From: Candidatus Rifleibacteriota bacterium
Lineage (GTDB): Bacteria > Riflebacteria > Ozemobacteria > Ozemobacterales > Ozemobacteraceae
Length of the DNA stretch: 64,000 nt
NCBI GenBank assembly: GCA_029564115.1
Contig: JAKQQP010000351.1
Coordinates: 29,872 to 93,871 of the forward strand
Reading direction: 5' to 3'
Numbering within the stretch: position 1 is the first letter of the stretch; each line of letters opens with the position of its first letter. A program made the translations under genes and the position numbers. Of the stretch, positions 13,868-33,028 are shown piece by piece. Below the pieces are notes generated by a model. It was not told the origin of the DNA and did no database searches. It saw nothing but the letters and a program-made list of their open reading frames with translations.

Positions 13868-13878
13868 GAGGTAACACA

Positions 13879-16800
13879 CTGTCCAATACCACACATAAAT
13901 TTGTAACTACTGGCCCCTCGCAGTATCTGCGCCAGTTGATTCTGCTGCTGATCTGCACGCTGTGTGCAATAAATCTGTATGCTCAAGACGAGCAGTATGT
14001 GACACTGCGCAAATTTCTTACTGCCAGAATGTATGGCGAGGCCTACAATGAATTGCTGCGGCTCGAACTCAGCCGCGACGAAATAGACCCGAAACTCGAG
14101 AAACTGCGAATCGATCTTCTCGAGCGCACCAAAGAAAGGCTCCTGCGACAGGCGCGTGTCAGCCCCGATGACCCGGCTATTTTCACGATCCTGGCCGATA
14201 TCGACTTCCATCAGGGCAATCTTGAAGAAGCCTCCAAAAATATCTCGAAGGCGCTGACAAACAAATCCGGGCCTGTGGCCAACTATGTTTTCGCCAAGAT
14301 ACTTTTCCGCAAGGGCAGTCTGGTGCAGGCTTTTGACCAGATGGGGAGCGTGCTGGAAGCCATGCCCGACTCACCTGTGGTTTTCGAAGACTTTCAGTTT
14401 CTGTATGCGTGCAAAAGCTACGGAATCGCGACCGCCCGCAAGATTTCTCGCAATACCAACTTCATCAAACGCGCGACACCTGTTGCCGCTGGCGACAACG
14501 TGCCAGAAATACCAGAGAGTCCTTTTGAAAATGACCCGACTCAGGTAGCTGCACTGCCTGCTGCCACACCCGAGCCGGTAGAAACGACACCTGCGCCAAT
14601 CAACGCTGCCTCAGTTACAGAAGAAGATGACGACCTACCGTTTCCAGATGATTCTGGTGACACTGACGAAGCCGACATTTTGCCCGACGAATCAACGGGT
14701 CTGCCGGATGAAAGCGATGAACCGGAAGATGAAGATTTTGTCGAAGACGAACCAGCTCAGACTTCTCCGGCAAAGGATCCACAGCTGCTACCACCTCGTC
14801 CTACTCCGGTGGCCATGACGCCCGAACCGCCACAACCCGAAACCGACCCTGAAAAGGAAAACATCAAAAAAGCTGAATACTGGCTGCAACAGGCTGTCAG
14901 ACAATTCGAAAACCGTAATTACGACGACGCTCAGAACAACTGGAAGTCTGCCGTGGAACTTCACGCTGACCTCCCCGGCAAAGACGAACTTAAAACCCGA
15001 CTGGATGCCAAATTTGACCTTTTCAAGCGCTATAGAGAAGCCAAAGACCTGTTTGAGCTTGAAAAATACGACAAAGCTCTGCCAACGCTTGAAGAAGCAT
15101 ACAATGAAGAACCTGACAGGTTCAAAGAAGCCCCCTTCATGATCGGGAAAATTTATCTGCTGCAGGCTGAGCCAGATTACGACAAAGCCCTGCATTATCT
15201 CGATCTGGTGCTGAGCCAGGACAACCTCGATCCCTTGTTCAAACGTGATATCGAATGGACAAAAATGGAAATTTTTTATGGGATGCACAGATTCGACGAG
15301 GCGAACGCCATATTTCAACGTTTCATGGCGAACGAAGAGGCTTTTGCCCGCAATCAGACAAACTTCAATCACCTGCGGATAGGGCTGTGGTACAACCTCA
15401 ACAAGACCCTGGTTCACATCGGGTTTGGCGTTTTCATAGCCATGTTTCTGCTGGTTTTCGTGCTCAGACTTCTGCCGGCTATTACCATGTTGTCTGATCC
15501 CCTCAAAAGTGCGAAACGCATGTTCGAAAGCAATAAGTTTCAGAAGGCTATTGGCATCGCGGAAAAGGCCCTGCGCAGCAAACAGCCTATTCAGGTCGAG
15601 AGAGAGTTTCTCGAGATTCTCGTTAAATGCCATTTTGAGCTCAAAAATTTTGTGAGATGCCAGGAAAACGCCCGGCTTATTCTCGAAAAATTCCCTGGAA
15701 ACAACATCGCCTGGAGTTATCTGGCCAAAGCCTCGATGGCCAGCCACGACACTTCGAACGAAGCCATTAGCATGTATGAAACCCTCTACAGAGAGAACCC
15801 CACCAGAAAAGAGTATCTGCCGATTCTTGCCAGACACCATGCTCAGACCGGTAACAACACGGTCGAGGCCATGAATATACTTGTCACTTACTACCAGTCG
15901 GGCGGCAAAGAACCGCCAATAGTAAAAGCCCTGGCGAACGGTTATGTGCAGAACCGTTCGATGGGTCCAGAAGTAATAGATATTCTTGAAGAAGCTCTCA
16001 AGACCGACGATAAATTAGATTACCGCGAGCTGCTGGCGCGAAATTTTTCAAAATGCGGCCGTTATGATGATGCAGCGCGTGAATGTCTGAAGGTACTCAA
16101 CGAGAATATAAACAACATGGGCATACATGTCGTCTATACCTCTTCGATGAAAAAGTTAAAAAAGCTCGATACCGCAATAGACCAGTATAAAACTTTCCTG
16201 CAAAGATACCCCGGCAATCCTCAGTTAAACGAAATATTGAACGGCCTCAAAAAAGATCTTTCAATTTTCAGCCCATCAGAAAGCGATCTTATGCAATTTC
16301 CGGAGGATCTTCCGATGCCCGATCTGCCTGAACCGGGCTTTTCCGATCATCATGAAGACATCGATCTTGAAAATTATGTAGAACCTCCCCCAGAAGGTTT
16401 TGTTATGGAAGACAGTCAGGAGACACCACTACCAGAGTTTCTGCAAGGCGGCGAATATTCTGACGAACCGCTGCCAGACCCGCTTGGTTTCGGTGACTCA
16501 GGGCCCGGAAGACTAACGCCACAACCAATTACCCCCGGAGGCAGACAAACCGAATTGCCACAGATCGAACTGCCGACTCTCGACCCGTTCGAAGATAATT
16601 CCGCGCTGTTCAATGAATTTGCCTCAGAGCTGCCCGAAGAGCTGGGCGGGCCGGCTGAACCACCTCTCCCGCTGCCCCCCGATTCGTTCAACCCTTACAA
16701 ACAGTTACCGGTCGAAGAGCCGTCGTCAGACGCTTTGCCGGGCAAACGCGGTTCAGACAGCATAAAATCAGCGACTGGTCAGGGGCTGACCATGAAAATA

Positions 16801-17154
16801 GCTGAAGCTCACGAGAAAGTCAGAGCAAGCAAATGGGACGACATAATCGCTCTGTTAAGCCCTGATTTTGCTTCAGAACGCAACAAAGAGGCAGGGATTC
16901 TGCTTGCAAATGCCTGGCTTGGTAAAAATAAACCGCAGATGGCTCTTGAAATAATCGAAACTCTCGACTTCGACCCGGAATTGTTGAATGAACCCATAAA
17001 AGAAGTGCTCTACCGCACAGGGCTCGCGCTCGAAAGTGAAAAAAAACTCGATGAAGCGCTGCGGATGTATGACCTGATCTGCAGTGTAGATATTAACTTC
17101 AAAGACGCTTTTGACCGTTCCGACAAGATCTACACCCGAAAAAAATCAGGCTGA
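13879..17154 (+). CDS. Very large membrane TPR protein, probable CTG start
   Basis: About 1,091 residues. The frame has no ATG near its beginning. CTG at 13879 lies seven bases after AAGAGG and just behind the previous stop, and gives a signal sequence (…LRQLILLLICTLCAINLYAQ). TTG 13804 lies inside the upstream zinc ribbon and TTG 13936 has no SD. The order is signal peptide, TPRs, an acidic Pro-rich linker (~200-325), TPRs, a transmembrane helix (~511-535), TPRs, a second acidic Pro-rich region (~800-960) and terminal TPRs. This is the same plan as the preceding gene (TPR–membrane–TPR), suggesting a related pair. Function unknown. Confidence 0.8.
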   Translation: MSNTTHKFVTTGPSQYLRQLILLLICTLCAINLYAQDEQYVTLRKFLTARMYGEAYNELLRLELSRDEIDPKLEKLRIDLLERTKERLLRQARVSPDDPAIFTILADIDFHQGNLEEASKNISKALTNKSGPVANYVFAKILFRKGSLVQAFDQMGSVLEAMPDSPVVFEDFQFLYACKSYGIATARKISRNTNFIKRATPVAAGDNVPEIPESPFENDPTQVAALPAATPEPVETTPAPINAASVTEEDDDLPFPDDSGDTDEADILPDESTGLPDESDEPEDEDFVEDEPAQTSPAKDPQLLPPRPTPVAMTPEPPQPETDPEKENIKKAEYWLQQAVRQFENRNYDDAQNNWKSAVELHADLPGKDELKTRLDAKFDLFKRYREAKDLFELEKYDKALPTLEEAYNEEPDRFKEAPFMIGKIYLLQAEPDYDKALHYLDLVLSQDNLDPLFKRDIEWTKMEIFYGMHRFDEANAIFQRFMANEEAFARNQTNFNHLRIGLWYNLNKTLVHIGFGVFIAMFLLVFVLRLLPAITMLSDPLKSAKRMFESNKFQKAIGIAEKALRSKQPIQVEREFLEILVKCHFELKNFVRCQENARLILEKFPGNNIAWSYLAKASMASHDTSNEAISMYETLYRENPTRKEYLPILARHHAQTGNNTVEAMNILVTYYQSGGKEPPIVKALANGYVQNRSMGPEVIDILEEALKTDDKLDYRELLARNFSKCGRYDDAARECLKVLNENINNMGIHVVYTSSMKKLKKLDTAIDQYKTFLQRYPGNPQLNEILNGLKKDLSIFSPSESDLMQFPEDLPMPDLPEPGFSDHHEDIDLENYVEPPPEGFVMEDSQETPLPEFLQGGEYSDEPLPDPLGFGDSGPGRLTPQPITPGGRQTELPQIELPTLDPFEDNSALFNEFASELPEELGGPAEPPLPLPPDSFNPYKQLPVEEPSSDALPGKRGSDSIKSATGQGLTMKIAEAHEKVRASKWDDIIALLSPDFASERNKEAGILLANAWLGKNKPQMALEIIETLDFDPELLNEPIKEVLYRTGLALESEKKLDEALRMYDLICSVDINFKDAFDRSDKIYTRKKSG

Positions 17155-17205: not shown

Positions 17206-17787
17206 TCAGAATTTGCCCATCAGCAGTTCGGCGTTGAGCGCCAGCCCCTCTACCCTGACGCCGGTAGCGCCGGCAAAAGTGTAACCGGCGCCGAATTCAA
17301 GTACGATGTGCCTGCTCATAGGAAGAACACCAATAATCATCGGCTCGAAAAAGCTGAACGACCCCTTGTTGAATTCATACCCGGAAGCCCGACTGCGCAA
17401 ACGATAATCGCCGACGCCAAACGATACCCGCCATTTAACGCGGGAATCTTCCCTGAATGAGTCTTCGAGGGTCAGACCAGCCATGTCGAGGTTAAATTTC
17501 TGACTTTCACCATTCAAAGTACCAGAATAAAAAACAAAGCCGATCTCAGGGTCATAAAGCCGGCCGGCAAAGGCTCTTATGCCCCATACGGTCATGTCTC
17601 CACCAAAGTTCTGCGGAGCGGCCACCCGTTTATATTTCATTATCGGCCCGACACCGTATACGTATTCGCTGCTTTTTGGCTGCGAATCCATCAGCAGCGT
17701 TGGGCCTGTCAGAGAGAAGCCGGCAGTCGCATACAGAATAAAAAGGGTTATAATCAGTAGAAATCGCTTGATTTTCATAGCGTTCAT
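17206..17787 (-). CDS. Exported beta-rich protein, possible small outer-membrane protein
   Basis: 193 residues if started at ATG 17787 (17778 is equally possible; neither has a clear SD). A signal peptide (MKIKRFLLIITLFILYATAGFS) is followed by alternating beta-strand-like segments (VWGIRAFAGRLYDPEIGFVFYSG, RVSFGVGDYRLRSR, EFGAGYTFAGATGVRVEG) ending in the hydrophobic/aromatic MGKF. Alternating pattern and terminal Phe fit an eight-stranded outer-membrane barrel. No family recognised. It stands alone on the minus strand between two plus-strand operons. Confidence 0.6.
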   Translation of the reverse strand: MNAMKIKRFLLIITLFILYATAGFSLTGPTLLMDSQPKSSEYVYGVGPIMKYKRVAAPQNFGGDMTVWGIRAFAGRLYDPEIGFVFYSGTLNGESQKFNLDMAGLTLEDSFREDSRVKWRVSFGVGDYRLRSRASGYEFNKGSFSFFEPMIIGVLPMSRHIVLEFGAGYTFAGATGVRVEGLALNAELLMGKF

Positions 17788-17868
17788 ATCGACAGACAAT
17801 GGCTTTTTTTTCAGCAAATTCAACGCATTGGCCAGATGTCGTATAACTTCTGTAACAGTTTAAAAAGG

Positions 17869-17962: not shown

Positions 17963-19711
17963 GTGAGTAACGATGTAGGCCCAACTCCACTGGGCAAATT
18001 TGTGATGTTCATGTTCGTCATCGGCTGCATTTTTGCAGCGGCGGTTTCCTTTTCCCCTGATCTCAAAGCAAAACTGTTTCCCTCTAATGATCAGCATAGT
18101 GGCGATTCTACTTCTTCCGGGCAGGCGACAGCGGTAACTAAAGCGGTAAAGGTTGAAGCCCCCGATACCGCCGGGGTAACTACAGTCCAGGAATACACCT
18201 ACGTGCCCAATGAATCTTTGCCGCCGGTCAGCGGAGTATCTGCCTACAAATGGGATGAAAACGACAAGACTGTCGTTTTCCCGATCAATGTCTGGTTCGG
18301 CTGGTTGCCGATTATCGCCGCCAACAATGGCTTTGCCCCTAATGAAGAAAGCGTTTTTTTCAAAAAATATGGTTTCAAAGTCAACCTGAAACTCATCGAC
18401 GACCCGATCGTAGCCCGTGACGCTTTTGCTTCGGGCGAATCTCACATTCTCTGGGGTACGCTCGACATGATCGCCCTGTTCGCACCCGGCTTGATGAAAG
18501 ACAGCCGCACCGCGCCACGCGTTTTCCAGCAGGTAGACTGGTCGAGCGGTGGCGACGGCATTGTCGTTCGCGGCAACATTCGATCAGTAAAAGATCTCGA
18601 AGGCAAAACCATCGTTTATGCCCAGAACAGTCCTTCACAGTATTTCATCACCAATCTGCTGCTCAACGCCGGAATACCGCTGAAAAATGTTAACCACAAG
18701 TTCACGACTACAGCTTTCGAAGCAGCAGCTGCCTTTGTCGCCGATAAAAGTATCCATGCCTGCGTAAGCTGGGCGCCCGATATTTACACGATCCCCGAAA
18801 AAATTGCCGGAACCCATATTCTTACCACAACTGCCGATGCCAATCGCCTCATCACTGACGTTTGGGCTGCCCGCGCCGACTTTGCCAAAGATCACCCTGA
18901 TATTATCGAAGGCCTGGTCGCCGGCATCTTCGAAGGCATGGGAATGCTCAAAAACGATACGATTAAAACCAAAGCTTTTGCCCATATGGCAGAAGGCTAT
19001 GGCATGAAAATCGAAGATATCAAGTCGATGGAACAGGACGCCTACATTACTAATTTTGCCGAGAACCAGAATTTCTTTCTGAACAAAAACAGCCCGACAA
19101 ACTTCGAAAGAACCTGGAAAAACATCATTTTCGTCTATCGAGAGCTTGGCCAGATTGGTACTCCGGTTCGTTTTGACGAAGTCGTAGACTTTTCTGTCGT
19201 CAAAAAATTCGCCGATAAAAACATGTTTGCCGACCAAAAAGATGTTCAGGTCAGCCGTTTCGTCTCTACCAGCTACAAAAAGGTTTCAGCAGAAGCACCG
19301 GTTCTGACGCAGACTGTCAGAATCAACTTTTACCCCAACTCTGACAACATCTACGAACCTGAACACGATGAATTCGGTCAGGCAATACCCAACACCCTTT
19401 ATGACCCCACCGTCGATGCGACTCTCGAGAAAATCGCCCGCATGGTTGGGCAGTATGACCGTGCTCAGGTTGCCATAGTCGGTCACACAGACAGTTCCAT
19501 GAAGGGCAAAGTCCCGGAAAAGGCTGTCAAAGACCTTTCCAGCGATCGCGCCAACTCGGTTCGCAGCGCCCTGGTGCGCAAATACAAGTTCGCCAGAGAA
19601 AAGTTCATAGTTGAAGGCAAAGGCTGGTCGGAGCCGGCAGACTCTGCCGACCCAATGAATCAGGCCCTCAATCGCCGCGTCGAAATCCAGGTTTTTACCC
19701 CAGAAAAATAA
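17963..19711 (+). CDS. Membrane-anchored substrate-binding protein fused to OmpA peptidoglycan-binding domain (copy 1)
   Basis: 582 residues, GTG start with AGGAGG upstream. An uncleaved membrane anchor (~11-30: GKFVMFMFVIGCIFAAAVSF) is followed by a NMT1/SsuA-type periplasmic binding domain (~70-400: VFPINVWFGWLPIIAANNGF, YAQNSPSQYF, VSWAPDIYTIPEKIAG) and an OmpA-like domain (~440-580: VRINFYPNS, IVGHTDSSMKG, LSSDRANSV, NRRVEIQV), which in the family binds meso-DAP through Asp and Arg. It would tie the inner membrane to peptidoglycan while presenting a binding domain. Highly similar to the protein at 20521. Ligand unknown: a NitT/TauT-like organic anion or other small molecule. Confidence 0.88.
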   Translation: MSNDVGPTPLGKFVMFMFVIGCIFAAAVSFSPDLKAKLFPSNDQHSGDSTSSGQATAVTKAVKVEAPDTAGVTTVQEYTYVPNESLPPVSGVSAYKWDENDKTVVFPINVWFGWLPIIAANNGFAPNEESVFFKKYGFKVNLKLIDDPIVARDAFASGESHILWGTLDMIALFAPGLMKDSRTAPRVFQQVDWSSGGDGIVVRGNIRSVKDLEGKTIVYAQNSPSQYFITNLLLNAGIPLKNVNHKFTTTAFEAAAAFVADKSIHACVSWAPDIYTIPEKIAGTHILTTTADANRLITDVWAARADFAKDHPDIIEGLVAGIFEGMGMLKNDTIKTKAFAHMAEGYGMKIEDIKSMEQDAYITNFAENQNFFLNKNSPTNFERTWKNIIFVYRELGQIGTPVRFDEVVDFSVVKKFADKNMFADQKDVQVSRFVSTSYKKVSAEAPVLTQTVRINFYPNSDNIYEPEHDEFGQAIPNTLYDPTVDATLEKIARMVGQYDRAQVAIVGHTDSSMKGKVPEKAVKDLSSDRANSVRSALVRKYKFAREKFIVEGKGWSEPADSADPMNQALNRRVEIQVFTPEK

Positions 19712-19732
19712 TATTTCCAAAGGAGCTGGAAA

Positions 19733-20491
19733 ATGTTCAAACGCTTGATGAATCTAATACGTGGTTTCTTCAGTCTGTTTATCAGGGGGCTCGAATCAAG
19801 CAATCCTGAAGCCCTGATCGAAGCTGAAAGAGAAAATCTGAAGCACCAGATCAGCCGCTATAACGAAAATCTGGCCAATCAGGCCGCATTTATCGAACGC
19901 CTGATGCGTCAGGTAAAAACATTGGCCGCCAAAGAAAAAGAATTGACCGCAAAGATTACCGCCAACCTCAAGGCGGGCAACAACAGAGTTGCCGGCCAGC
20001 TGGCTCTGCAGCTGCAGACTGTCAAGCAGCAGCTCGACGAAAATCAGTCTCAGCTTGAAATTGCCGACAAAACCTACAAAGATCTCGAGAAGTCTCGCGA
20101 CGTAGCCGTTCGCGAAGCTCAGATGAAGATCGAAAAACTGCAGAATCTTCTCAGCGAAGCTCAAATGCACGAAGCCCAGGCCGAGCTCCAGGAAATGGCA
20201 AAAGGCATGATCACCAGCATCGGCTCGAGCGGCGACACCATCAACAGAGTCACCGAACTTCTCGAAGAACGCCGCGACAAAGCCGCTGGCCGTTCTAGAG
20301 TTGCCGCCGGCTCTTATGACAGTTCTCAGGTCACCATGAAAGAAGCCGAAATGGAAGCTCTCGGTGACGCAGCCCTCGCTGAATTTGCCGCCATGAACGG
20401 CATTGCAATGCCAGGAGCCGGTCAACCCCTTGCCGAAGGTGAATCTGATGATGTTCCGCAGCGCGGCATGGGCCCGATGCAGAAAAATTGA
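19733..20491 (+). CDS. pspA: PspA/Vipp1 (IM30, ESCRT-III superfamily) membrane-stress protein
   Basis: 252 residues with the canonical PspA plan: an N-terminal amphipathic helix (MFKRLMNLIRGFFSLFIRG), then four to five long helices rich in Gln, Glu, Lys and Ala (ESSNPEALIEAERENL … ELQEMAKGMI). PspA/Vipp1 proteins polymerise on damaged membranes and belong to the ESCRT-III superfamily. AAGGAG precedes ATG 19733. It lies between the two SBP-OmpA genes and upstream of an ABC transporter and AAA+ ATPase, so it probably acts with them at the inner membrane (inference). The C-terminal ~35 residues are Gly/Pro-rich and unlike classic PspA. Confidence 0.92.
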   Translation: MFKRLMNLIRGFFSLFIRGLESSNPEALIEAERENLKHQISRYNENLANQAAFIERLMRQVKTLAAKEKELTAKITANLKAGNNRVAGQLALQLQTVKQQLDENQSQLEIADKTYKDLEKSRDVAVREAQMKIEKLQNLLSEAQMHEAQAELQEMAKGMITSIGSSGDTINRVTELLEERRDKAAGRSRVAAGSYDSSQVTMKEAEMEALGDAALAEFAAMNGIAMPGAGQPLAEGESDDVPQRGMGPMQKN

Positions 20492-20520
20492 ACGAAAACA
20501 TATTTTTTAAGGAGCAAGAG

Positions 20521-22170
20521 ATGTATTTAAGAGGAAAACTGTTTCTGGTTATCATGGCTTTACTGGCATTCTGTTGCGGCGCTCTTCAGGCACAGGAAGC
20601 AGCTGTGGTCGAAGCCCCCGACACTGAATCCGTAACCACGGTCAAGGAATATAAATTTGTACCTCGTGAAACCCTGCCTCCAGTGCAGGGCACTTCTGCC
20701 TACAAATGGGATGAAAAGGAAAAAATCGTAGTTTTCCCCATCAACGTCTGGGCCGGGTGGTTGCCGATTATCGCAGCCAACAATGGCTTTGCTCCGAATG
20801 AAGACAGCATTTTCTTCAAAAAATATGGTTTCAAAGTCAATCTGAAACTCATCGACGACCCGGTGGTCGCCAGAGACTCTTTTGCCAGCGGCGAAAGTCA
20901 TGTTCTGTGGGGCACTCTCGACATGATGGTTCTGTTTGCCTCTGAACTGATGAAAGACAGCCGTACTGCACCGAGAATCTTCCAACAGGTAGACTGGTCA
21001 AGCGGCGGCGACGGCATTGTTGCCCGCAGCAAAATTCGTTCAGTTGCCGACCTCAAGGGCAAGACCATTGTCTACGCACAAAACAGCCCATCACAGTATT
21101 TTATCAGCAACCTCCTGATCAATGCAGGCATCGGCCTTGATGAAGTAACTCACAAATATACTTCGACGGCTTTTGAAGCTGCCGCAGCCTTTGTCTCTGA
21201 TGCAAGCATAGATGCGTGCGTCAGCTGGGCTCCCGACATTTATACTATTCCTGAAAAAATCGCCGGCACCCGCATACTTACCACCACCGCCGAAGCCAAC
21301 AAGCTGATCGCCGACGTGTGGGCGGCTCGTGCCGACTTCGCCCGCGACAAACCCGAAATCATCAAAGGCCTTGTTGCAGGTATCTTCGAAGGCATGGATA
21401 TGCTCGAAAACCCGACCACCAAGGCACAAGCTTTCCAATGGATGGCTGATGGCTACGGCATGAAGGTTGAAGATGTGAAGGCAATGGAAGCAGACTCTCA
21501 CTCAACCAACTTTGCCGAAAACCGCGAATTCTTCATGAATGCCAACAATCCAACCAACTTTGAACGCACCTGGAAAAGTATCGCCTACGTTTACAACCAG
21601 GCCGGGCTGGTCAAAGAAGCCGTTCCTTTCAACCAGATCATGGACTTCACGATCATGGAGGAACTTGAAAAAGATGGTCAGTTCAAACACCACAAAGACA
21701 ACTATGTAAGCAAATTCGTACCCACTACCTATTCAAAAGTCAACGCCGAAGCCCCGATCATCACTCAGACTGTCAGAATCAACTTCTACCCGAATTCTGC
21801 CAACATCTACGAACCGGCGCATGATCTCACCGGCAATGCCATTGCCAACACGCTCTATGACCCGAATATCGAAGCCACCCTCGAAAAGGTCGCCCGTCTC
21901 GTCGGTGCTTATGACCGCGCCGTTGTCGCCATTACCGGGCACACTGACAGTTCTATGAAGGGCAAAATACCTGAAAAGATCGTCAAAGACCTCAGTATGA
22001 ACCGTGCCGAAGCCGTCAAAAAAGCTCTGGTCGACAAATACAAATTCGACGCCAAAAAATTCGTGGTTGAAGGCGAAGGCTGGAATAAGCCCGCTGACCT
22101 CGATAACCCCATGAATCAGGCCCTGAACCGCCGGGTAGAAATCTCCGTATTTCCGCCAGAAAGCAACTGA
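20521..22170 (+). CDS. Secreted substrate-binding protein fused to OmpA domain (copy 2)
   Basis: 549 residues from ATG 20521, with AAGGAG upstream; the in-frame start at 20488 has no such site. It is a close paralogue of the protein at 17963, with the same NMT1/SsuA-type domain and OmpA domain (ITGHTDSSMKG, LSMNRAEAV, NRRVEISV), but begins with a cleavable signal peptide (MYLRGKLFLVIMALLAFCCG, then ALQA). It should therefore be periplasmic and held only by peptidoglycan, unlike copy 1. A strong hairpin follows it (22181-22205). Probably the abundant binding protein feeding the permease encoded next. Confidence 0.88.
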   Translation: MYLRGKLFLVIMALLAFCCGALQAQEAAVVEAPDTESVTTVKEYKFVPRETLPPVQGTSAYKWDEKEKIVVFPINVWAGWLPIIAANNGFAPNEDSIFFKKYGFKVNLKLIDDPVVARDSFASGESHVLWGTLDMMVLFASELMKDSRTAPRIFQQVDWSSGGDGIVARSKIRSVADLKGKTIVYAQNSPSQYFISNLLINAGIGLDEVTHKYTSTAFEAAAAFVSDASIDACVSWAPDIYTIPEKIAGTRILTTTAEANKLIADVWAARADFARDKPEIIKGLVAGIFEGMDMLENPTTKAQAFQWMADGYGMKVEDVKAMEADSHSTNFAENREFFMNANNPTNFERTWKSIAYVYNQAGLVKEAVPFNQIMDFTIMEELEKDGQFKHHKDNYVSKFVPTTYSKVNAEAPIITQTVRINFYPNSANIYEPAHDLTGNAIANTLYDPNIEATLEKVARLVGAYDRAVVAITGHTDSSMKGKIPEKIVKDLSMNRAEAVKKALVDKYKFDAKKFVVEGEGWNKPADLDNPMNQALNRRVEISVFPPESN

Positions 22171-22180
22171 CACAAATCTG

Positions 22181-22205
22181 CCGGGTGGGCAAAAAGCCCA
22201 CCCGG
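22181..22205 (+). other. GC-rich intercistronic hairpin between SBP and permease genes
   Basis: CCGGGTGGGC and GCCCACCCGG form a perfect 10-bp stem around an AAAAA loop, 10 bases after the SBP stop and 18 before the permease ATG. No T-run follows, so it is not a simple terminator. Such hairpins commonly protect upstream mRNA so that the binding protein is made in excess over the membrane subunits (inference). Confidence 0.8.
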
Positions 22206-22223
22206 TCGCCCTGGAGATGAAAC

Positions 22224-23540
22224 ATGAAACTCACTTTGCACGAGAACTTTTTTGGCATAAGAACCGGTGTTAAGCTGGTCGACCAAATCATTCTTGGCGT
22301 AATCCCGATCTTTCTGATTTTTCTTCTCTGGGTATTCGTCACCTCCGGCAAGACAGTTACCATAATATTGCCAGAAGGCACTTTTGAAGGTTTCGAAAAG
22401 AACCCGCCCCCCGAAGGCACCCTGTTCAGAGAAAAAGTGCGCCTCACCATCGACAACAGCACTCACGAACTGAAAGATTCAGCTAATGATAGTCTGCTGT
22501 CTTACCTGCTCAAAGACGGCGAAAAATTCGAACTTGGCCATATTCCGGCTCGCCCTTTTGGTAAAAGCGTCAGGTTAACCATGCCCCCTGGCAGGTATAT
22601 CGGCAGAGAAAAACTGCCACCGGCAAAACCTGATAAAGCACCGGCAAAGCCTGATTCTGAACTTTTAAAGACCACTCCTGTAAGCGAAAATGTTTCAGAG
22701 AGCACTCCAGACCTAGAAACCACTCCGCCTGACGACGACCATCGGGCTGAAGCTGCTTCTCCGTCAACAGAAGCCGCTGCCGCGTCTACGGCGCCAGCTG
22801 CGTCACCGATTTTTCCGCTGCTGAAATTCAAATATCGCTATGAAATCGTTGAAACACGCCTGATAAGCCCATCGATGCTGCCAAGCCCCGGAGAAGTCTA
22901 CCGATCTTTGCCTTCTTTGTGGTCTGACAGATCTCTACCCAAAAATATTCTTTACAGTTTTCTTCGAGTTGGGGCTGGTTTTATCGTCGCCTTCCTCATA
23001 GTTTTTCCCATGGCTCTTTTAATGGGCACCTTCAGCAAATTCAAGGCTCTGATAGCACCATTGATGCTTTTCGGCGGCTACTTGCCAATCCCGGCGCTGG
23101 TACCGCTGTTCATGATTCTTTTTGGCACAAACGAGCTGCAGAAAGTCATGTTTCTGGCCTTCGGCTTCGCAATTTATCTGCTTCCCCTCTTCGTAAAATA
23201 TCTCGATGAAGTAGATAACGTCTATCTGCAGACTGGTTATACCCTCGGTGCCAATAAATTTCAGATACTCAACAACATCCTTCTGCCAATAGCGCTGCCG
23301 AATATGTTTGATGCCATGCGGCTCGGCTTCGGCATTGGCTGGGGCTACATCATTCTTGCTGAAATGGTCGACATGGGCAGTTTCGGAGTAGGTACACTCA
23401 TTTTGACGAGTCAGCGTCGCGGACCGCGCGAAGATATCTACCTGGTGCTCATTGCAATCGTCATTATGGCCTTCATCACTGACAAAATCTGGGATAAAGT
23501 CGGGCAGCAGTTATTCCCCTACAGGAGCCAGAAACGATGA
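22224..23540 (+). CDS. ABC transporter permease (SsuC/TauC/NrtB type) with long N-terminal insertion
   Basis: 438 residues; typical SsuC-type permeases have ~260. A first transmembrane helix (~20-43) is followed by a non-membrane region (~44-215) whose last part is Pro/Ala/Glu-rich, then the binding-protein-dependent transport core (~235-430: RVGAGFIVAFLIVFPMALLMG, the EAA-like loop YTLGANKFQILNNILLPIALPN, and GIGWGYIILAEMV). It overlaps the ATPase gene by ATGA. Partner of the adjacent ATPase; the insertion probably makes extra contacts, perhaps with PspA or the coiled-coil protein (inference). Confidence 0.88.
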   Translation: MKLTLHENFFGIRTGVKLVDQIILGVIPIFLIFLLWVFVTSGKTVTIILPEGTFEGFEKNPPPEGTLFREKVRLTIDNSTHELKDSANDSLLSYLLKDGEKFELGHIPARPFGKSVRLTMPPGRYIGREKLPPAKPDKAPAKPDSELLKTTPVSENVSESTPDLETTPPDDDHRAEAASPSTEAAAASTAPAASPIFPLLKFKYRYEIVETRLISPSMLPSPGEVYRSLPSLWSDRSLPKNILYSFLRVGAGFIVAFLIVFPMALLMGTFSKFKALIAPLMLFGGYLPIPALVPLFMILFGTNELQKVMFLAFGFAIYLLPLFVKYLDEVDNVYLQTGYTLGANKFQILNNILLPIALPNMFDAMRLGFGIGWGYIILAEMVDMGSFGVGTLILTSQRRGPREDIYLVLIAIVIMAFITDKIWDKVGQQLFPYRSQKR

Positions 23541-24805
23541 GCGAGCAGTCACCCCAAAAAGTTTCAATATTTCGCAAAATCGCCGGTTATTTTTACAGGT
23601 TTGACGACCATAACCCCGCTCTCCAGATCAAAGACCGGACAAAATCACAAAAAATGGTGCCGGCAAAAGTCGCCGAAAAATCTTCCAGGCACACTGATGC
23701 GAGCACCGGCAACAATCCTCCCGCCAGGTCGGTGGCAGCAGACAAAGACACTGTTGTCGACCGCTCTCCGGTTGAAAAGAATTGTGTAAATACCGAAAAA
23801 AGCCATGCTCAGGAAGGTTTTCCGTTTCCTGAAGAGCCAAAGAATGCTGTTTCAGAGACGCACAAACAAACCCATGTCGCTGGCACAAGCCCCAAAGCTG
23901 CCGCAGACAAAGCACCGGCTATCGTTTCATCAGGTGCAAACGAACTCGATGCTATGGAGCCGGCTGTCACCAAACCAAAATACCCACCGATCGTCACCTT
24001 CAGAAATGTCAGCAAAATTTTTAACCCGGGCACTCCGAATGAGTTTATGGCCCTCAAAAACGTTTCTTTCGAAATCGAAGATCTGCCAGATATTGGCGAA
24101 TTCATTGCCCTTGTCGGGCCTTCAGGCTGTGGCAAGTCAACTGTATTGAACCTGATCCAGGGTTTTCAGGAAGTCGGGCCGCCGAGCTACGGCGAAGTTC
24201 TGGTGCGCAACAAACCAGTCACCGGGCCAGGTCGCGACCGCGGCATGATCTTTCAAAAATACAGCTCGTTCCCGCACCTGACCGTATTACAGAACGTCAT
24301 GTTCGGCCTGCATCTGAATCGCGAATCACTCGGCTACCCTGAACACGTCATGGAAAAGCTTGCCCGGGAAATGATCGCCAAGGTTGGCATGAAAGGACAC
24401 GAAGACAAGTATCCTTATCAGCTTTCCGGTGGTCAGCAGCAACGCGTTGCCATTGCCCGCACTCTCGTTCTCAAACCCAGAATAATTCTGATGGACGAGC
24501 CCTTTTCGGCACTCGATGAACCGACCAGAATCGAAATGCAGGAATTGATTACAGCCCTGTGGCATGAGGTCGAAGCGACCGTTTTCATAGTGACGCATTC
24601 ACTTGCCGAGGCCGTATATCTGAGTGACCGCATTTTCATGTTCAAGGCCAACCCCGGTCAGTTGATGAAGCAGATCAGCATCACCCATGACGATATCGGC
24701 AAATATGAGGGCATGACGCCTCTTGAAGTTCAGGAAAGCCCCAAATTCAACAATTTTCTTAAAAATATCACCGACGAATTCTTGAGAATAGGTGGCTCAG
24801 AATAA
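23537..24805 (+). CDS. ABC transporter ATPase (SsuB/TauB/NrtD type) with charged N-terminal extension
   Basis: 422 residues: an unusual Lys/Ala/Pro-rich extension (~1-150) before a normal nitrate/taurine-type ABC domain. Walker A GPSGCGKST, Q-loop FQKYSSFPHL, signature LSGGQQQRVAIAR, Walker B ILMDEPFSALDE and switch VTHSLAEA are all intact, so it should hydrolyse ATP. The start overlaps the permease stop (ATGA), with AGGAG upstream. The extension has no recognised domain. Confidence 0.92.
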   Translation: MSEQSPQKVSIFRKIAGYFYRFDDHNPALQIKDRTKSQKMVPAKVAEKSSRHTDASTGNNPPARSVAADKDTVVDRSPVEKNCVNTEKSHAQEGFPFPEEPKNAVSETHKQTHVAGTSPKAAADKAPAIVSSGANELDAMEPAVTKPKYPPIVTFRNVSKIFNPGTPNEFMALKNVSFEIEDLPDIGEFIALVGPSGCGKSTVLNLIQGFQEVGPPSYGEVLVRNKPVTGPGRDRGMIFQKYSSFPHLTVLQNVMFGLHLNRESLGYPEHVMEKLAREMIAKVGMKGHEDKYPYQLSGGQQQRVAIARTLVLKPRIILMDEPFSALDEPTRIEMQELITALWHEVEATVFIVTHSLAEAVYLSDRIFMFKANPGQLMKQISITHDDIGKYEGMTPLEVQESPKFNNFLKNITDEFLRIGGSE

Positions 24806-25690
24806 ATGAAACTACGCCGCAAGCCTGGTTACTCAGATTATCTGACCGAGGCATTCAACGCCGGCCTTGTCATCAAGGGCATGGGCGAAATCCCTGTAAA
24901 CAAACTTTTCATTCTCGGCTCTTTTATCTTGGGCTTCAGCAACCCAGGCTTCTGGATGCTTGGACTGGCATTTGAAGTGATTTATCTCTGGTTTCTCACG
25001 TCTAATGAACGGTTTCAGAAGTATGTCCAGGGCAAACAGCTGTCTCAAATTCAGCAGTCAAGATCAGAAAAGATGAACGAGCTGATAGCCAGTCTGACCC
25101 CTGAAAATCATTCTCGCCTCAAGCGTCTGAATGCGAATCTGGCCGAAATAAACAAGCTCATGAACTGGAACATAGATGAAGGCGCCGGTTTCATGAACCA
25201 GAGCCGACAGCAGACCCTCAATCAGCTGCCGTCGATATTTCTCAAACTGCTCAAAACAAAACAGCTGATCGAAGAAAGCCTGCATCGCACCAAGCCTTCA
25301 GAAATCAGCAATGAAATCAAAAAACTTGAACAGCAGATGAGTAGCGGCATGAGCCCTGCGCTGGCCAAATCACTGCAGGGCAACATAGAGATTCATAAAA
25401 AACGCCTTGATAATCTCGGTGTTGCCAAAGAAAATGAAATGCTGGTCGAAATGGAACTGCAGCGCATCGAAAGCCAGCTGCACCTGGTCAGAGAAGAAAT
25501 TGCCCTCGACAGCAGCCCTGAAGGGCTCAGCAACAATATCGACAAAATAAACAACACACTCGGAGAAACCCAGGACTGGATCAACAGCCATTCTGACTTT
25601 CTTCGTAAGCTCAGTGGCCCACCCATCGATACCCCTGAATTTGAAATGGACGTGGAGCCGGTATTACCACCAAACCGCGAAATCGAATAA
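24806..25690 (+). CDS. Unknown membrane protein with coiled coil, ABC/PspA operon
   Basis: 294 residues, starting immediately after the ATPase stop. A short cytoplasmic N-terminus is followed by two hydrophobic segments (~33-47 and ~49-66: LFILGSFILGFS, FWMLGLAFEVIYLWFL) and a long helical, coiled-coil-like domain (~75-275, rich in Gln, Glu, Leu, Lys). No family recognised. Position between the ATPase and the AAA+ gene suggests a membrane receptor or adaptor of the system, for instance for PspA or AAA+ recruitment (inference only). Confidence 0.8.
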   Translation: MKLRRKPGYSDYLTEAFNAGLVIKGMGEIPVNKLFILGSFILGFSNPGFWMLGLAFEVIYLWFLTSNERFQKYVQGKQLSQIQQSRSEKMNELIASLTPENHSRLKRLNANLAEINKLMNWNIDEGAGFMNQSRQQTLNQLPSIFLKLLKTKQLIEESLHRTKPSEISNEIKKLEQQMSSGMSPALAKSLQGNIEIHKKRLDNLGVAKENEMLVEMELQRIESQLHLVREEIALDSSPEGLSNNIDKINNTLGETQDWINSHSDFLRKLSGPPIDTPEFEMDVEPVLPPNREIE

Positions 25691-25705
25691 AAAGGAAGCT
25701 GCACT

Positions 25706-27502
25706 ATGGCAAATTACCCTGAATGGGCCAGAGAAATGGCCGAAATTTTTAAAAGCGGTTCAATCAGCCAGTTCGTTCTTTACGGCAACATCGATGACTG
25801 GGTTACCTATGCCTCCGAAGACTCACAACAGCTGCAATGCCTTTCTCTGAAAGATTTTCTGACCCGCGTGATGTTCGCCCCTTTCGAGGTGGTATTGACT
25901 TATGACCGTGGTCACGGCATAAGAGCTGCCAAGGGCGGCGAACTGTTTTTTAATTTTCTCAAGGCCTACGACAGTTTTCATCGAACCTCTTTCGCCACTT
26001 CGCCAGACGGCGACATCACTGCCGACAGCGCCAACTCGCTTCCCAAAGACCCAAAACGCGCTCTAGCGCTGATAGACAGATTTATCAGACACGGACTGGT
26101 TCGCACCACTGCCGACAAAAGCGGCAAACCGGTCGCCAACCCGATGCGAACCGCGATCATAGTCGAATATGCTCAGTATCTTCTGCCACGGGCCGAGATC
26201 GCCTACACCAGTTCCGAGTCGGTAGAAACTCTGATCAGAGTTTTAGATTGGGCCTCCGACCCCAATATCAACAACGCCTATGTCAGTACCTGTCTGATTG
26301 CCGAAAACCTCAACGACGTCAACCGTCAGCTGGTCGAGAACCCACGCTCGGCCAAAATTCAGATAAGTCTTCCGGATGCTGAAACCGTATTGAACTTCGT
26401 ACAGACCGTCACCTCTGCAATCCCGGATTTTTCTTCGATCTGCGATGTCGACAGGGCTTCTCTGGCGCAAAAACTTGAAGGTTTGTCGTGCATTGACGTG
26501 CAGAATCTTATCGAGCGGGCAATAAAAAACCAGCGGCGCATTTCAATGGAATATCTGCGCGAAGTCAAAAAGGAAATGATCGAAAAATCGGCAGGTGGCC
26601 GAATTGTTTTTGTTGAATCCACACGCAACCTCGATGATGTCGCCGGCCACTCAGAAGCCAAAGCCTGGCTGCGTCAGGATGCCTCGTTGATGAAACGCGG
26701 CAAGATAAAAGCTTTACCAATGGGTTATCTTATTACCGGCCGTATTGGAACCGGCAAAACCTATCTGGTCGAGTGCTTCGCCGGCGAAGCAGGCGTTCCC
26801 TGTGTTGAACTCAAGAATTTTCGCGACAAGTGGGTAGGTGCCACCGAAGGCAATCTTGAAGCCATTTTTAAAATTCTGCATGCTATGGGTCAGGTTATCG
26901 TTTTTATCGACGAAGCCGATCAGGTAGCGGGAAAACGTGACAGCAACTCTGGCGATTCCGGAGTATCGGGGCGCATATACGCGATGTTGGCCAGGGAGAT
27001 GGCTGACACACGCAATCGCGGGCGCATATTCTGGATCTTTGCAACCTCTCGACCAGACTTGCTCGAAGTAGATCTGAAACGCGTAGGGCGCCTCGATGTG
27101 CATATTCCGCTATTTGCCCCTCAGACAGAAGAAGACAAAAAAGACCTGTTCAAGGCTCTTGCCCGCAAAAACAAGGTCAAACTCGAAGATTCCGATCTGC
27201 CTGTGTTCCCTGACAGTCTTGATATCGGCGGCAATGAAATGGAAGGCATTCTGATCATGGCCTCGCGCATGTTCGAACTGCAGGAAGAAAACGACCCGGA
27301 GCGCAAACCGGTAGGGCACTTCATTGCCGAAGCGGTAAAAAACTACCGACCAATGGCCCACTCATCGCGACTTGAATTCATGGATCTCGCAGCGGTCGTG
27401 GAGTGCACAGACCAAAGATTTCTGCCCGAAAAATTTGCAAAACTCGATATGGAAGACGCCAAAAGGCGCATGGACGACCTGAAGCTCGAAATCAGCGATT
27501 GA
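25706..27502 (+). CDS. AAA+ ATPase, Ycf46-like with degenerate N-terminal AAA domain
   Basis: 598 residues. The C-terminal AAA+ domain (~300-520) has DVAGHSEAKAWL, Walker A GRIGTGKT (345-352), Walker B VIVFIDEADQ (397-406), sensor-1-like IFATSRPD and KRVGRLD as the likely Arg-finger segment. The N-terminal ~290 residues resemble an inactive AAA fold (VLYGNIDD, AIIVEYAQYLLP in place of Walker B, STCLIAENLNDVN), the same plan as Ycf46-type ATPases. No transmembrane segment and no protease domain. Last gene of the operon holding a PspA/ESCRT-III protein; a Vps4-like disassembly role is an attractive but untested inference. Confidence 0.85.
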   Translation: MANYPEWAREMAEIFKSGSISQFVLYGNIDDWVTYASEDSQQLQCLSLKDFLTRVMFAPFEVVLTYDRGHGIRAAKGGELFFNFLKAYDSFHRTSFATSPDGDITADSANSLPKDPKRALALIDRFIRHGLVRTTADKSGKPVANPMRTAIIVEYAQYLLPRAEIAYTSSESVETLIRVLDWASDPNINNAYVSTCLIAENLNDVNRQLVENPRSAKIQISLPDAETVLNFVQTVTSAIPDFSSICDVDRASLAQKLEGLSCIDVQNLIERAIKNQRRISMEYLREVKKEMIEKSAGGRIVFVESTRNLDDVAGHSEAKAWLRQDASLMKRGKIKALPMGYLITGRIGTGKTYLVECFAGEAGVPCVELKNFRDKWVGATEGNLEAIFKILHAMGQVIVFIDEADQVAGKRDSNSGDSGVSGRIYAMLAREMADTRNRGRIFWIFATSRPDLLEVDLKRVGRLDVHIPLFAPQTEEDKKDLFKALARKNKVKLEDSDLPVFPDSLDIGGNEMEGILIMASRMFELQEENDPERKPVGHFIAEAVKNYRPMAHSSRLEFMDLAAVVECTDQRFLPEKFAKLDMEDAKRRMDDLKLEISD

Positions 27503-27514
27503 GCAGCGGGCAGC

Positions 27515-27985
27515 TCAGGCTACGAATTCTTGTTCAAGGCAGAGGAATTTGGTGAAACGGAGCGTCGTGCCTGCACCGGGCGAAGAAATCAGTTCGTATC
27601 TGTCTGATAGAAGGCTTATCAGGCCCAGACCGCGGCCACGAGTCGAGTTAAGACTGCGCAGGTTTTTTGGGATCTGAACTCCGGACAGGTCAAAGCCACA
27701 GCCTGTGTCTTTGACACAGACCTCGAGCCTGTCTTTGAAAATCAGAAACTCTACCTCGAGTTGTGATTCGCAGCTGGTCCTGGCACCGTGCTCTATTGCG
27801 TTGGCATAAGCCTCATCGACGATCATGGCCAGTTCGAAAACCTGGTCTTCGTCAAAACCCATCCGCCTTGCGATTACTTCGGTATTGTCTCTGATCACTC
27901 TCAAATAACAAGGCTTTTCAAATTTAAAAAGCACCTGTTCTGGAAATTTTCTTTGTCCCATCTTTTTTTGCCCCAATATAAGCAT
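27515..27985 (-). CDS. GHKL ATP-binding protein, RsbW/anti-sigma-factor-like
   Basis: 156 residues, single HATPase domain: N-box ELAMIVDEAYANAIEHGA, G1 VKDTGCGFDL, G2 RGRGLGLI, and terminal GAGTTLRFTK. This is the size and pattern of RsbW/SpoIIAB-type serine kinases or anti-sigma factors, which act by partner switching. The start is uncertain: ATG 27985 or ATG 27961, with GGAAAAG near the first. No STAS or sigma-factor partner is adjacent. It converges with the AAA+ gene, 12 bases apart, and is divergent from the exported protein at 28117. Confidence 0.8.
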   Translation of the reverse strand: MLILGQKKMGQRKFPEQVLFKFEKPCYLRVIRDNTEVIARRMGFDEDQVFELAMIVDEAYANAIEHGARTSCESQLEVEFLIFKDRLEVCVKDTGCGFDLSGVQIPKNLRSLNSTRGRGLGLISLLSDRYELISSPGAGTTLRFTKFLCLEQEFVA

Positions 27986-30889: not shown

Positions 30890-32068
30890 ATGCCAGATTT
30901 CAAACTTGCCTTGCAAAAATGCGATTCATATACGCCAGAACAGGTTGAAAAGGCAGTCGGTCAGCTGTTAAAAGGCCTTGGCGGCATAGAACGCTTCGTC
31001 AGCCCCGGGCAGAGAGTATTGATAAAGCCCAACATGCTTACCTGCAAAGATCCTTCAAAAGCGGCGACAACCCACCCGCTTCTCATCGAAGAAATAGCCC
31101 GGCTGTGCGTCAGACGCGGTGCCAGCGTTGTCATCGGCGACAGCCCACCGGCAATTTTTGGCCGAACTGAATCTTTCTGGGAAACAACCGGCTTTGCTGC
31201 TGCAGCCCGCAACAGTGGCGCAGAGCTTCGCTGTTTTGAGACAGACGAAAAGGTCACGCTGAAATTCTTTTCGAACGGCAGAGAAATAACCACCCACGTC
31301 GTTAAAACATTGTTTAGAGCGGATGTAGTTATCAATCTGGCCAAAATGAAAACCCACAATCTGACACGCATCACTGGTGCAGTCAAAAATCTGTTCGGTT
31401 TGATTCCGGGGTTTGCTAAAGCGCAATGGCACAAAGCCTTTCCCCGCCCTGAAGAATTCGCCGATTTTATCAGCGATTTCGCCCACCAGATTCCGGTCAC
31501 TCTCAACATCATGGATGGCATAGAAAGCATGGACGGTCAGGGACCGGCGGGCGGGCGCGTAGTAAAAAGCGGTGTATTGCTTGCATCGACCTGCCCTGTA
31601 ACTGTTGACATGGGCTTTTGTAGACTGATAAATCTCGACCCGACGACTGTTCCAACTTTGCGAAGATGCCGACAGCTGAACTGGGGACCAAAGAGCTTTG
31701 CAGAAATTACCTTTATAGGTCAGCAGCCCGATGAAGTGGCGATAAGCAATTTTTCGGTTCCGAAAACTCCGCCCTTGTCGCTGATTCCAGACTTTATTCT
31801 TAAGGGCATAAAAAAATTTCTCTGGACCGGACCGGCGCTGCTGCCGAAAAAATGCATCAAATGCGGTCGATGTCGCGAAATATGCCCGGTTTTGGCGATA
31901 AATATAGGTGCAGAAGGCGCTGAATTCGATCGAAAGCTCTGTATTTCGTGCTTCTGCTGTATGGAAGTCTGCCCGGTCGAAGCAATCGAAATGAAATCGA
32001 GCCCACTGCTCTCTATCGGCATGCGACTTCGCGGGCTGAAAAGAAGTCTGAGAAAGCAACGCAAATGA
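30890..32068 (+). CDS. DUF362 protein with C-terminal 2[4Fe-4S] ferredoxin domain
   Basis: 392 residues from ATG 30890; CAGGAG lies seven bases upstream. DUF362 domain (~1-290: VLIKPNMLTC, THPLLIEEIARL, GDSPP, INLAKMKTHNLTRITGAVKNLFGLIPG split) followed by two cluster motifs, CIKCGRCREICP and CISCFCCMEVCP. The family is widespread in anaerobes; its substrate is not firmly known. Here it opens the LPS cluster and overlaps the acyltransferase start (ATGA), so a role in envelope lipid or sugar metabolism is possible. The iron-sulfur domain suggests an anaerobic or facultative lifestyle. Confidence 0.88.
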   Translation: MPDFKLALQKCDSYTPEQVEKAVGQLLKGLGGIERFVSPGQRVLIKPNMLTCKDPSKAATTHPLLIEEIARLCVRRGASVVIGDSPPAIFGRTESFWETTGFAAAARNSGAELRCFETDEKVTLKFFSNGREITTHVVKTLFRADVVINLAKMKTHNLTRITGAVKNLFGLIPGFAKAQWHKAFPRPEEFADFISDFAHQIPVTLNIMDGIESMDGQGPAGGRVVKSGVLLASTCPVTVDMGFCRLINLDPTTVPTLRRCRQLNWGPKSFAEITFIGQQPDEVAISNFSVPKTPPLSLIPDFILKGIKKFLWTGPALLPKKCIKCGRCREICPVLAINIGAEGAEFDRKLCISCFCCMEVCPVEAIEMKSSPLLSIGMRLRGLKRSLRKQRK

Positions 32069-33021
32069 ATGCTCTAAAATCTTTCAGCAACAGGCTGCAG
32101 GTGTTTATGCTCGACAAACTGGCGCGTGCATGTGCCAGAATGAGCTTCAACAAAAAACGCCGCCTCGCCGGACTGATAGCTACCCTGGCCCGCCCACTTC
32201 CCTGGCTTCGCTTCAAACAGGTATCTGCCAGTCTGGCAGAGCATCTCGACCTTGTTCCTGAGGCGGCTGCAGCAATGGCAGAGAAGGTATTTCACCATTT
32301 TCTCATCAACTCATTCGAAATGGCCGGCCTCAAATTTTACAGTCGTGACGAAATAATTCAAAAAATCAGGTGCGAGGGGCTTGAAAACCTGCAAAACGCT
32401 CTGGCGCCGGGTAAAGGCGTCATAATTGTCTCAGGCCATTTCGGTCTATGGGAATTCATCCCTCTATGGCTTGCTACACAGGGTTTTGCCATCACCACCG
32501 TTGTGAGGCGGCAAAACAACCCTCTAGTCGACACCTGGTTCGAAGAAATGCGGCAGCAACACGGTGCCAGAACCACAGATTCAGGCTACGGCATACGCGA
32601 AATACTCAAATCTTTGCGGCGCGGTCACATCCTCGCCCTGATGGTCGACCAGGATAACGGCAAACAGGGCATTTTCGTAAAATTCTTCCGCCGCTGGGCT
32701 TCGGCCCCAACCGGGCCGGCACAAATCTCTCTCAAAACCGGTTCTCCAATCGTTCCGCTCGCTCTTTTCCCGAATTACAGAGGCAAACATCTGTTAAAAA
32801 TATGGCCAGCCATTTTCCCAGACCGTTATTCTGATGATATTTCCGGACAACAGGCGCTAACAGCGGAGTTCACCACCATCATCGAATCCATCATAACCAT
32901 ACAGCCAGAAAACTGGTTCTGGCTGCATCGCCGCTGGAAAACCGGCCCACAGGATGCCCCGGATAACCCGTGGGCAAAACTTGTTTTGACATCTACCCAT
33001 GATGCAGGCGATAATAACTGA
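32065..33021 (+). CDS. Lipid A biosynthesis acyltransferase, LpxL/HtrB-like
   Basis: 318 residues from ATG 32065, overlapping the previous stop; an in-frame start at 31948 is inside the DUF362 gene and is rejected. Conserved LpxL-family HX4E motif (SGHFGLWE, ~residue 123), then GARTTDSGYGIREILKSL, the DQDNG/FFRRWA substrate region and the terminal QPENWFWLHRRWK motif. Transfers a secondary acyl chain to Kdo-lipid A at the inner membrane. It directly precedes waaA, as expected for lipid A assembly. Confidence 0.92.
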   Translation: MNALKSFSNRLQVFMLDKLARACARMSFNKKRRLAGLIATLARPLPWLRFKQVSASLAEHLDLVPEAAAAMAEKVFHHFLINSFEMAGLKFYSRDEIIQKIRCEGLENLQNALAPGKGVIIVSGHFGLWEFIPLWLATQGFAITTVVRRQNNPLVDTWFEEMRQQHGARTTDSGYGIREILKSLRRGHILALMVDQDNGKQGIFVKFFRRWASAPTGPAQISLKTGSPIVPLALFPNYRGKHLLKIWPAIFPDRYSDDISGQQALTAEFTTIIESIITIQPENWFWLHRRWKTGPQDAPDNPWAKLVLTSTHDAGDNN

Positions 33022-33028
33022 AGAAAAT

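Follow-up and report, generated by a model that had tools for sequence, protein, structure and literature searches.

What is a PspA-family membrane protein doing in one operon with an AAA+ ATPase and an ATP-binding cassette (ABC) transporter whose solute-binding protein (SBP) is fused to a peptidoglycan-binding domain? The question is raised by a window of 64,000 nucleotides from a Candidatus Rifleibacteriota bacterium (contig JAKQQP010000351.1), in which seven open reading frames (ORFs) lie collinear on the + strand at 17963-27502: SBP-OmpA copy 1, PspA, SBP-OmpA copy 2, an ABC permease, an ABC ATPase, a protein without a family (gene 6) and a tandem AAA+ ATPase. The intervening gaps are, in order, 21, 29, 53, -4 (an ATGA overlap), 0 and 15 bases, and the unit is thus present as a sequence-only reading of this DNA had delimited it. 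It is probably a bacterial membrane-remodelling module resembling the endosomal sorting complex required for transport (ESCRT), joined to an envelope-tethered ABC unit, with the AAA+ protein dismantling a PspA polymer via the C-terminal tail of PspA.

PspA and the AAA+ protein are near-obligate partners in 246 genomes drawn from the phylum of genome G004 (which holds locus L024, titled Planctomycetota). PspA is found in 34 of these genomes and the AAA+ protein in 32; 31 carry both, three PspA alone, one AAA+ alone and 211 neither. For the phylum of genome G001 (39 genomes; G001 holds locus L002, titled Rifleibacterium) the totals are 23 and 24, with both proteins in 21 genomes, PspA alone in two, AAA+ alone in three and neither in 13. 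Fisher p values for the pair, calculated without kinship correction and with weaker AAA hits excluded, are 8e-35 (G004 phylum) and 6e-6 (G001 phylum). The excluded hits, with E values of 1e-40 or less but above about 1e-82, were treated as other AAA proteins; this boundary was set post hoc from a gap and takes AAA+ hits from 8/40 genomes in the G004 phylum and from 3/27 in the G001 phylum. Since these large searches scored a handful of top candidates in each genome, misses are possible. A looser search recovered short AAA+ fragments from G236 and G041; in G180, G152 and G022 it returned nothing, or only hits of the sort that other AAA proteins give. Among 15 genomes chosen non-randomly from the loci, the identical 12 carry PspA, gene 6 and AAA+. 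Tight linkage of PspA to the AAA+ gene is as expected for a pair of the ESCRT-III/Vps4 kind and supports the sequence-only reading.

The distance between the two genes varies. In the 58 genomes with both, they lie within 300 bases on one strand in 17, within 10 kb in 22, farther apart on one contig in one and on different contigs in 18, some of these splits being assembly breaks. Fourteen of the 17 adjacent pairs were viewed in their surroundings (G144, G178 and G218 fall outside this count). No system SBP, permease or ATPase is present in the stretch around 11 of the 14 (three contigs being shorter than 8 kb), and ABC genes accompany the remaining three (L047, L052, L057). G010 keeps a system ATPase elsewhere in its genome; G033, G035 and G131 have no ATPase reaching the system-clade score. 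Because the pair can stand without a transporter alongside, PspA and AAA+ appear to form the core of the system, with gene 6 and the ABC unit as its usual extension.

AAA-paired PspAs are a group set apart from canonical PspA, and their C-terminus is a flexible-looking tail. The window protein (19733-20491, + strand) has an amphipathic-looking N-terminal helix (judged by eye), matches PF04012 (PspA_IM30) at 43.2 bits against a cut-off of 33.9, and finds Vipp1/PspA among PDB sequences; 22 of 24 aligned relatives match PF04012 at E 0.1. Canonical PspAs, with Pfam E values of about 1e-36 to 1e-51, occur in genomes of the G001 phylum either where the system is missing or as second copies where it is present, the second copies lying on contigs other than that of AAA+. 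The AAA-paired PspAs of that phylum score more weakly, mostly between 1e-6 and 1e-12 (best 1e-18).

In the window, the tail spans residues 224-252 (20402-20488, + strand) and carries the motif R-G-M-G-P. Across an alignment of 88 distinct PspAs, scored only behind the last conserved helix, a tail motif is present in 69/69 AAA-paired proteins, as [KR]-x-[ILM]-G in 60 and as an RQKI type in nine, and neither type occurs in 16 canonical-type PspAs (15 from L063-L078, plus L086). Three further PspAs come from genomes without a detected AAA+; two of these (G022, G152) have no motif. The motif Gly falls 3-9 residues from the end in 53 of the 60, after a Pro/Ala/Glu-rich linker. All 23 representatives below 70% core identity carry a motif of either type, compared with 0.55 expected from shuffled tails, and the final pattern fits all 22 distinct AAA-paired PspAs fetched later (L095-L123, some being near-copies of earlier ones). 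Left out of the count were L019 (with N and a split frame), L029 (truncated), L032 (partial, with an RQKI end), and L038 and L093, which have a long C-terminal extension preceded by KEMGP. When the final 32 residues are scanned loosely, hits include KRLG at the helix end of three canonical PspAs (L068, L072, L073), KKMG or KEMG within helices of Verrucomicrobia-type PspAs, and RELG in L108. A further control of 17 PF04012 matches comprises four other proteins and 13 PspA-like ones (11 distinct tails); in 12 of the 13 the final 32 residues are free of the pattern, and the REMG of L159 sits where its last helix ends, outside any tail. The motif does not occur within the last 25 residues of seven other protein families examined, and no description of it was found in the portions of the open-access literature searched. 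The tails of L062 and L121 contain both types, KTMGP and RQKV, and may link the two motif classes.

The other partner, the AAA+ ATPase (25706-27502, + strand), is predicted to fold as a tandem AAA protein of Cdc48/Rix7 layout. Its N-terminus aligns as an AAA domain from about residue 5, and the predicted model starts directly with this first copy, which is degenerate and has no P-loop. The C-terminal copy (Pfam AAA at residues 342-468) retains Walker A/B, the Arg fingers and the pore-loop Trp. This copy is a classical AAA domain with an aromatic pore loop, as in Vps4-type proteins, predicted from its residues to be active, and the gene is linked to one of the ESCRT-III superfamily. However, Pfam detects no MIT domain in the window protein at E 0.01 and the AAA domains are in tandem, so that its identification as Vps4 is ruled out. 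Against the CDC48 cut-off (802.65) its score is far too low. The gene names proposed from sequence are borne out by domain scans with two exceptions: gene 6 belongs to no family, and "Ycf46" is just a generic label that one source attaches to some relatives. Named close relatives of the AAA+ protein and of gene 6 are mostly Candidatus Riflebacteria.

A mechanism can be proposed from what is observed, namely conserved and linked genes, a PspA tail with a motif, intact catalytic and pore residues in the AAA+ protein and SBP residues for peptidoglycan binding that relatives keep, together with the predicted tandem AAA fold. PspA would polymerise on the cytoplasmic membrane, on its inner face. With the [KR]-x-[ILM]-G(-P) tail as recognition site, the tandem AAA+ protein would engage the flexible C-terminal end of PspA and thread subunits through its active C-terminal ring, which would dismantle the polymer and recycle PspA; gene 6 may keep AAA+ and PspA membrane-bound and close to the transporter. 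The N-terminus of the SBP would anchor it in the inner membrane, and its OmpA domain would hold it to peptidoglycan. The ABC unit could then import or sense a small periplasmic ligand, or report the distance between membrane and wall, and thereby couple the state of the envelope to the PspA cycle.

Several points weigh against this mechanism. The Fisher values overstate significance because the genomes are related, and with the weaker AAA hits included the counts (both, PspA alone, AAA+ alone, neither) become 31/3/9/203 in the G004 phylum and 21/2/6/10 in the G001 phylum. Nine of the 16 canonical PspAs have three residues or fewer after the last helix; this control therefore shows the absence of a whole tail rather than of the motif from a tail of equal length. 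The tail pattern was chosen after the first tails had been seen and its fifth position was freed later; as first written it fails in 4 of the 22 later PspAs (L101, L114, L115, L116), and a second class was introduced for the RQKI type. The G180 PspA carries the motif in a genome where AAA+ was not found. The AAA+ protein lacks an MIT domain and has no known pocket for the tail. PspA is reported to be able to remodel membranes, and to hydrolyse ATP weakly, without an AAA+ partner (PMC11746142). Finally, the ABC unit is tied to PspA by linkage alone.

To assess how widely the full set is kept, contigs of named genomes were scanned with the SBP part, which gave at least 38 loci. Family profiles find all six families in 21 of the 38 listed loci, and 18 of these 21 keep the order PspA, SBP-OmpA, permease, ATPase, gene 6, AAA+ on one strand, with L020, L024 and L038 rearranged. 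The sequence-only reading had staked itself beforehand on such co-occurrence elsewhere, and here it holds; conservation of the gene set is more than chance. By their titles, the 21 full loci belong to five phyla (Riflebacteria, Acidobacteria/Vicinamibacteria, BRC1, Planctomycetota and Verrucomicrobia). The titles of L001 (Erysipelotrichia), L003 (Methylomirabilis) and L028 (Akkermansia muciniphila) are probably misassigned, as the sequences match Riflebacteria or Verrucomicrobia loci. Several of the remaining 17 listed loci are short contigs, and in L010 and L016 the AAA+ gene is missing from the fetched stretch yet lies on another contig of the same genome. The seven-gene form is narrower than the six-family set: two or more SBP-OmpA pieces occur in 12 listed loci, 11 of the Riflebacteria kind (in L011 one copy is split) and L023. 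That the genes merely travel together without a joint mechanism could draw on co-occurrence counts uncorrected for kinship. It is nevertheless very improbable, given an order kept in 18 of 38 listed loci from several phyla and the 18 of 58 genomes, assembly breaks among them, in which PspA and AAA+ lie on different contigs.

Gene 6 (24806-25690, + strand) matches no Pfam family at E 0.01, and its predicted structure is a hydrophobic hairpin followed by a helical domain (predicted local distance difference test score, pLDDT, 74). Two of 54 gene 6 relatives match the mycobacterial PspM-like family Rv2743c (best E 0.0065). Gene 6 and AAA+ adjoin in most of the full loci listed. In the G004 phylum, gene 6 is found in 27 genomes, together with AAA+ in 24, without AAA+ in three and undetected where AAA+ is present in eight, 211 genomes having neither; it accompanies PspA in 24/246. 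It is found in 19 genomes of the G001 phylum. Adjacency and co-occurrence of this kind would also suit an AAA+ protein that acts on gene 6 or on the ABC proteins, PspA being only recruited. This is improbable: gene 6 goes undetected in 8/32 AAA+-bearing genomes of the G004 phylum and in 6/24 of the G001 phylum, PspA stands directly beside AAA+ in 5/8 and 5/6 of these gene-6-negative genomes, respectively, and the tail motif is confined to PspA among the families examined.

In the ABC unit, SBP-OmpA copy 1 (17963-19711, + strand) consists of a hydrophobic N-terminal anchor (residues ~13-31), an SsuA/NMT1-like solute-binding domain (PF09084) and an OmpA-like peptidoglycan-binding domain (PF00691). 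Copy 2 (20521-22170, + strand) is 70% identical and has a signal-peptide-like start in place of the anchor; Pfam finds the OmpA and NMT1 domains in both. For copy 2 the ATG at 20521, which opens the signal-peptide-like start, was chosen over the mechanical first TTG at 20488. Most SBP-OmpAs have a hydrophobic N-terminal segment (judged by hydrophobicity and by eye), which looks like an anchor where a lineage has a single copy and in copy 1 of Riflebacteria, and like a signal peptide in copy 2. Among 58 SBP-OmpA proteins an Asp is kept in 55 and an Arg in 56, the two residues with which OmpA-like domains bind peptidoglycan. In the PDB the SBP matches, with low scores, proteins that bind sulfonate, nitrate or taurine. 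The permease (22224-23540, + strand; TauC/SsuC superfamily, PF00528, 50.7 bits) has an extra N-terminal hydrophobic helix and an insert and linker of ~160 residues, with a topology that is predicted; the long insert is restricted to six Riflebacteria-kind rows of a 19-row alignment. The ATPase (23537-24805, + strand; PF00005, 103.9 bits) has a low-complexity N-terminal extension of ~150 residues.

An ordinary importer combined with membrane care is accordingly worth weighing. The transporter would import a sulfonate-like or other ligand, PspA would stabilise the membrane and AAA+ would be a general assembly chaperone. The resemblance of SBP, permease and ATPase to SsuABC/TauABC speaks for it, as do ATPase motifs invariant in 16/16 aligned proteins. 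However, the listed NCBIfam scores stay well below the curated cut-offs (68.9 vs 163.5 for SsuA_fam, 77.3 vs 342 for TauC and 193.5 vs 357 for TauB, the ATPase scores being the best 25 of 187), and membership in SsuABC/TauABC was rejected. In a FastTree phylogeny of 65 ATPases, the 34 system ATPases form one clade (support 0.97) with none of the 31 others inside, the latter taken from the same genomes by score; their surroundings were viewed in eight loci, and some of them may not be plain importers. Among the closest branches outside the clade are L034, L047 and L126, ATPases that likewise adjoin SBP genes (L126 probably). Separation of the ABC subunits from plain importers, on which the sequence-only reading depended, thus holds for the ATPases in this small, score-chosen set and is weak for the permeases, where 40 system and 11 other proteins separate at a support of 0.37. 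With the PspA-AAA+ pairs that stand without adjoining ABC genes also counted, the importer explanation is unlikely, and the ESCRT-like module remains the preferred one.

Variants and companions of the set differ between lineages. A distant SBP-OmpA, 29-34% identical, occurs in L034-L037 (Aureispira, Hydrogenedentes and two of Phycisphaerae type) among the matches listed, and in the three of these genomes tested, PspA of the AAA-paired type, gene 6 and AAA+ were not found. The Aureispira locus (L034:1040-4361), which lies on a short contig, comprises SBP-OmpA, permease and ATPase, and its genome is without a detected AAA-paired-type PspA, gene 6 or AAA+; this could be a stripped or an ancestral form. 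A variant cluster at L047:850-10150 combines AAA+, PspA, a long VWA protein, SBP-OmpA, a plain NMT1-type SBP, permease and ATPase, and has no gene 6 within its 14-kb stretch. A VWA-domain family of 12 is encoded close to PspA or SBP-OmpA, or directly next to one of them, in loci from Verrucomicrobia and Planctomycetota as well as in L025 (L018, L019, L020:11472-12326, L025, L026:1397-2173, L027, L028:8001-8783, L029, L030, L031, L033, L037:2441-3316). It has no match in the window or in Riflebacteria-kind loci, and a DxSxS string is present in 14/14 VWA relatives. A coiled-coil protein of 200-250 residues, without a family, accompanies the set in Planctomycetota loci (seven members: L019, L020:8316-8945, L021:11408-12019, L022, L023:15980-16738, L024:8028-8690, L038:7913-8656).

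Around the operon in the window, the nearest plausible genes (17206-17823 and 27515-27985) are on the opposite strand. The latter is an HATPase_c_2 (RsbW-like) gene convergent to the operon, with matches in four Riflebacteria-kind loci (L001, L002, L003, L008). Upstream, at 11303-17154, are two long overlapping TPR ORFs with matches only in loci of the Riflebacteria kind. Consecutive genes for a lipid A acyltransferase, a Kdo transferase and two heptosyltransferase-family proteins at 31999-36274 are consistent with a diderm, lipopolysaccharide-type envelope.

The module is real and widely conserved, and it is already in print. Operons of PspA, an AAA+ protein with a dead N-terminal copy, an ABC ATPase, a permease and PBPB-OmpA are reported by Ravi et al. 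(2024, mSystems; PMC11237479), where ATP-dependent remodelling like that of Snf7/Vps4 is proposed. The window encodes the same combination, compared here by that description (the published example is OGG56892.1); domain composition, a transmembrane-segment-bearing helical partner and the ESCRT-like idea agree. Because such operons are reported there, the system is not undescribed, as the sequence-only reading had called it. Its ESCRT-like interpretation gains from the wide co-occurrence, the separate ABC ATPases and the tight PspA/AAA+ linkage, and loses novelty and the identity with Vps4. The published account is one sentence with an example and mentions Snf7 homologs with a transmembrane segment, to which gene 6 may or may not correspond; the text seen does not include the tail motif, the near-obligate pairing, a separate PspA subfamily or the two-SBP form. 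New here are the likely core pair, its characteristic tail and a testable mechanism: in two sampled phyla, a PspA subfamily seldom occurs without a specific AAA+ protein and has a tail missing from canonical PspA. In the same text, how assembly is regulated by PspA without an AAA partner is given as unknown (PMC11237479). The disassembly of bacterial PspA/Vipp1 polymers can thus be tested by combining the two proteins in purified form and deleting the tail.

Other known systems share parts of this design. Canonical PspA/Vipp1 has the PspA_IM30 domain, but the canonical PspAs of the same phylum have no tail motif. SsuABC/TauABC has homologous SBP, permease and ATPase domains, whereas here the SBP is anchored and fused to OmpA, scores are under the cut-offs and the ATPases form a separate clade. 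Relative to Cdc48/p97 and Rix7, the AAA+ protein lacks a P-loop in its first AAA copy, and its model starts at that copy. An archaeal Vps4-like ATPase, as far as the text seen describes it (Makarova et al., 2024; PMC10936438), is likewise a Cdc48-related AAA+ protein without MIT, beside a weakly PspA-like gene; it has winged-helix partners and a VAT-like N-domain, whereas the window system has an N-terminal dead AAA copy and ABC and SBP-OmpA partners. Archaeal and eukaryotic ESCRT-III/Vps4 also pairs a polymer-forming superfamily protein, bearing a short C-terminal motif, with an AAA+ protein of similar C-terminal AAA fold and aromatic pore loop. The window system differs in having no detected MIT domain, tandem AAA domains with a dead first copy and another tail motif. 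The chances are about even that PspA and AAA+ are a bacterial ESCRT-III/disassembler pair in which the PspA tail signals recruitment or threading to a Cdc48-type AAA+ protein, equal in function to MIM-MIT and made of different parts, the full form being coupled to the wall through the peptidoglycan-anchored ABC unit. Systems with both Vps4 and ESCRT-III are described as confined to archaea and eukaryotes in the consulted part of Makarova et al. (PMC10936438); if the proposal is true, the logic of ESCRT-III plus AAA+ exists in bacteria as well, with a different docking solution.

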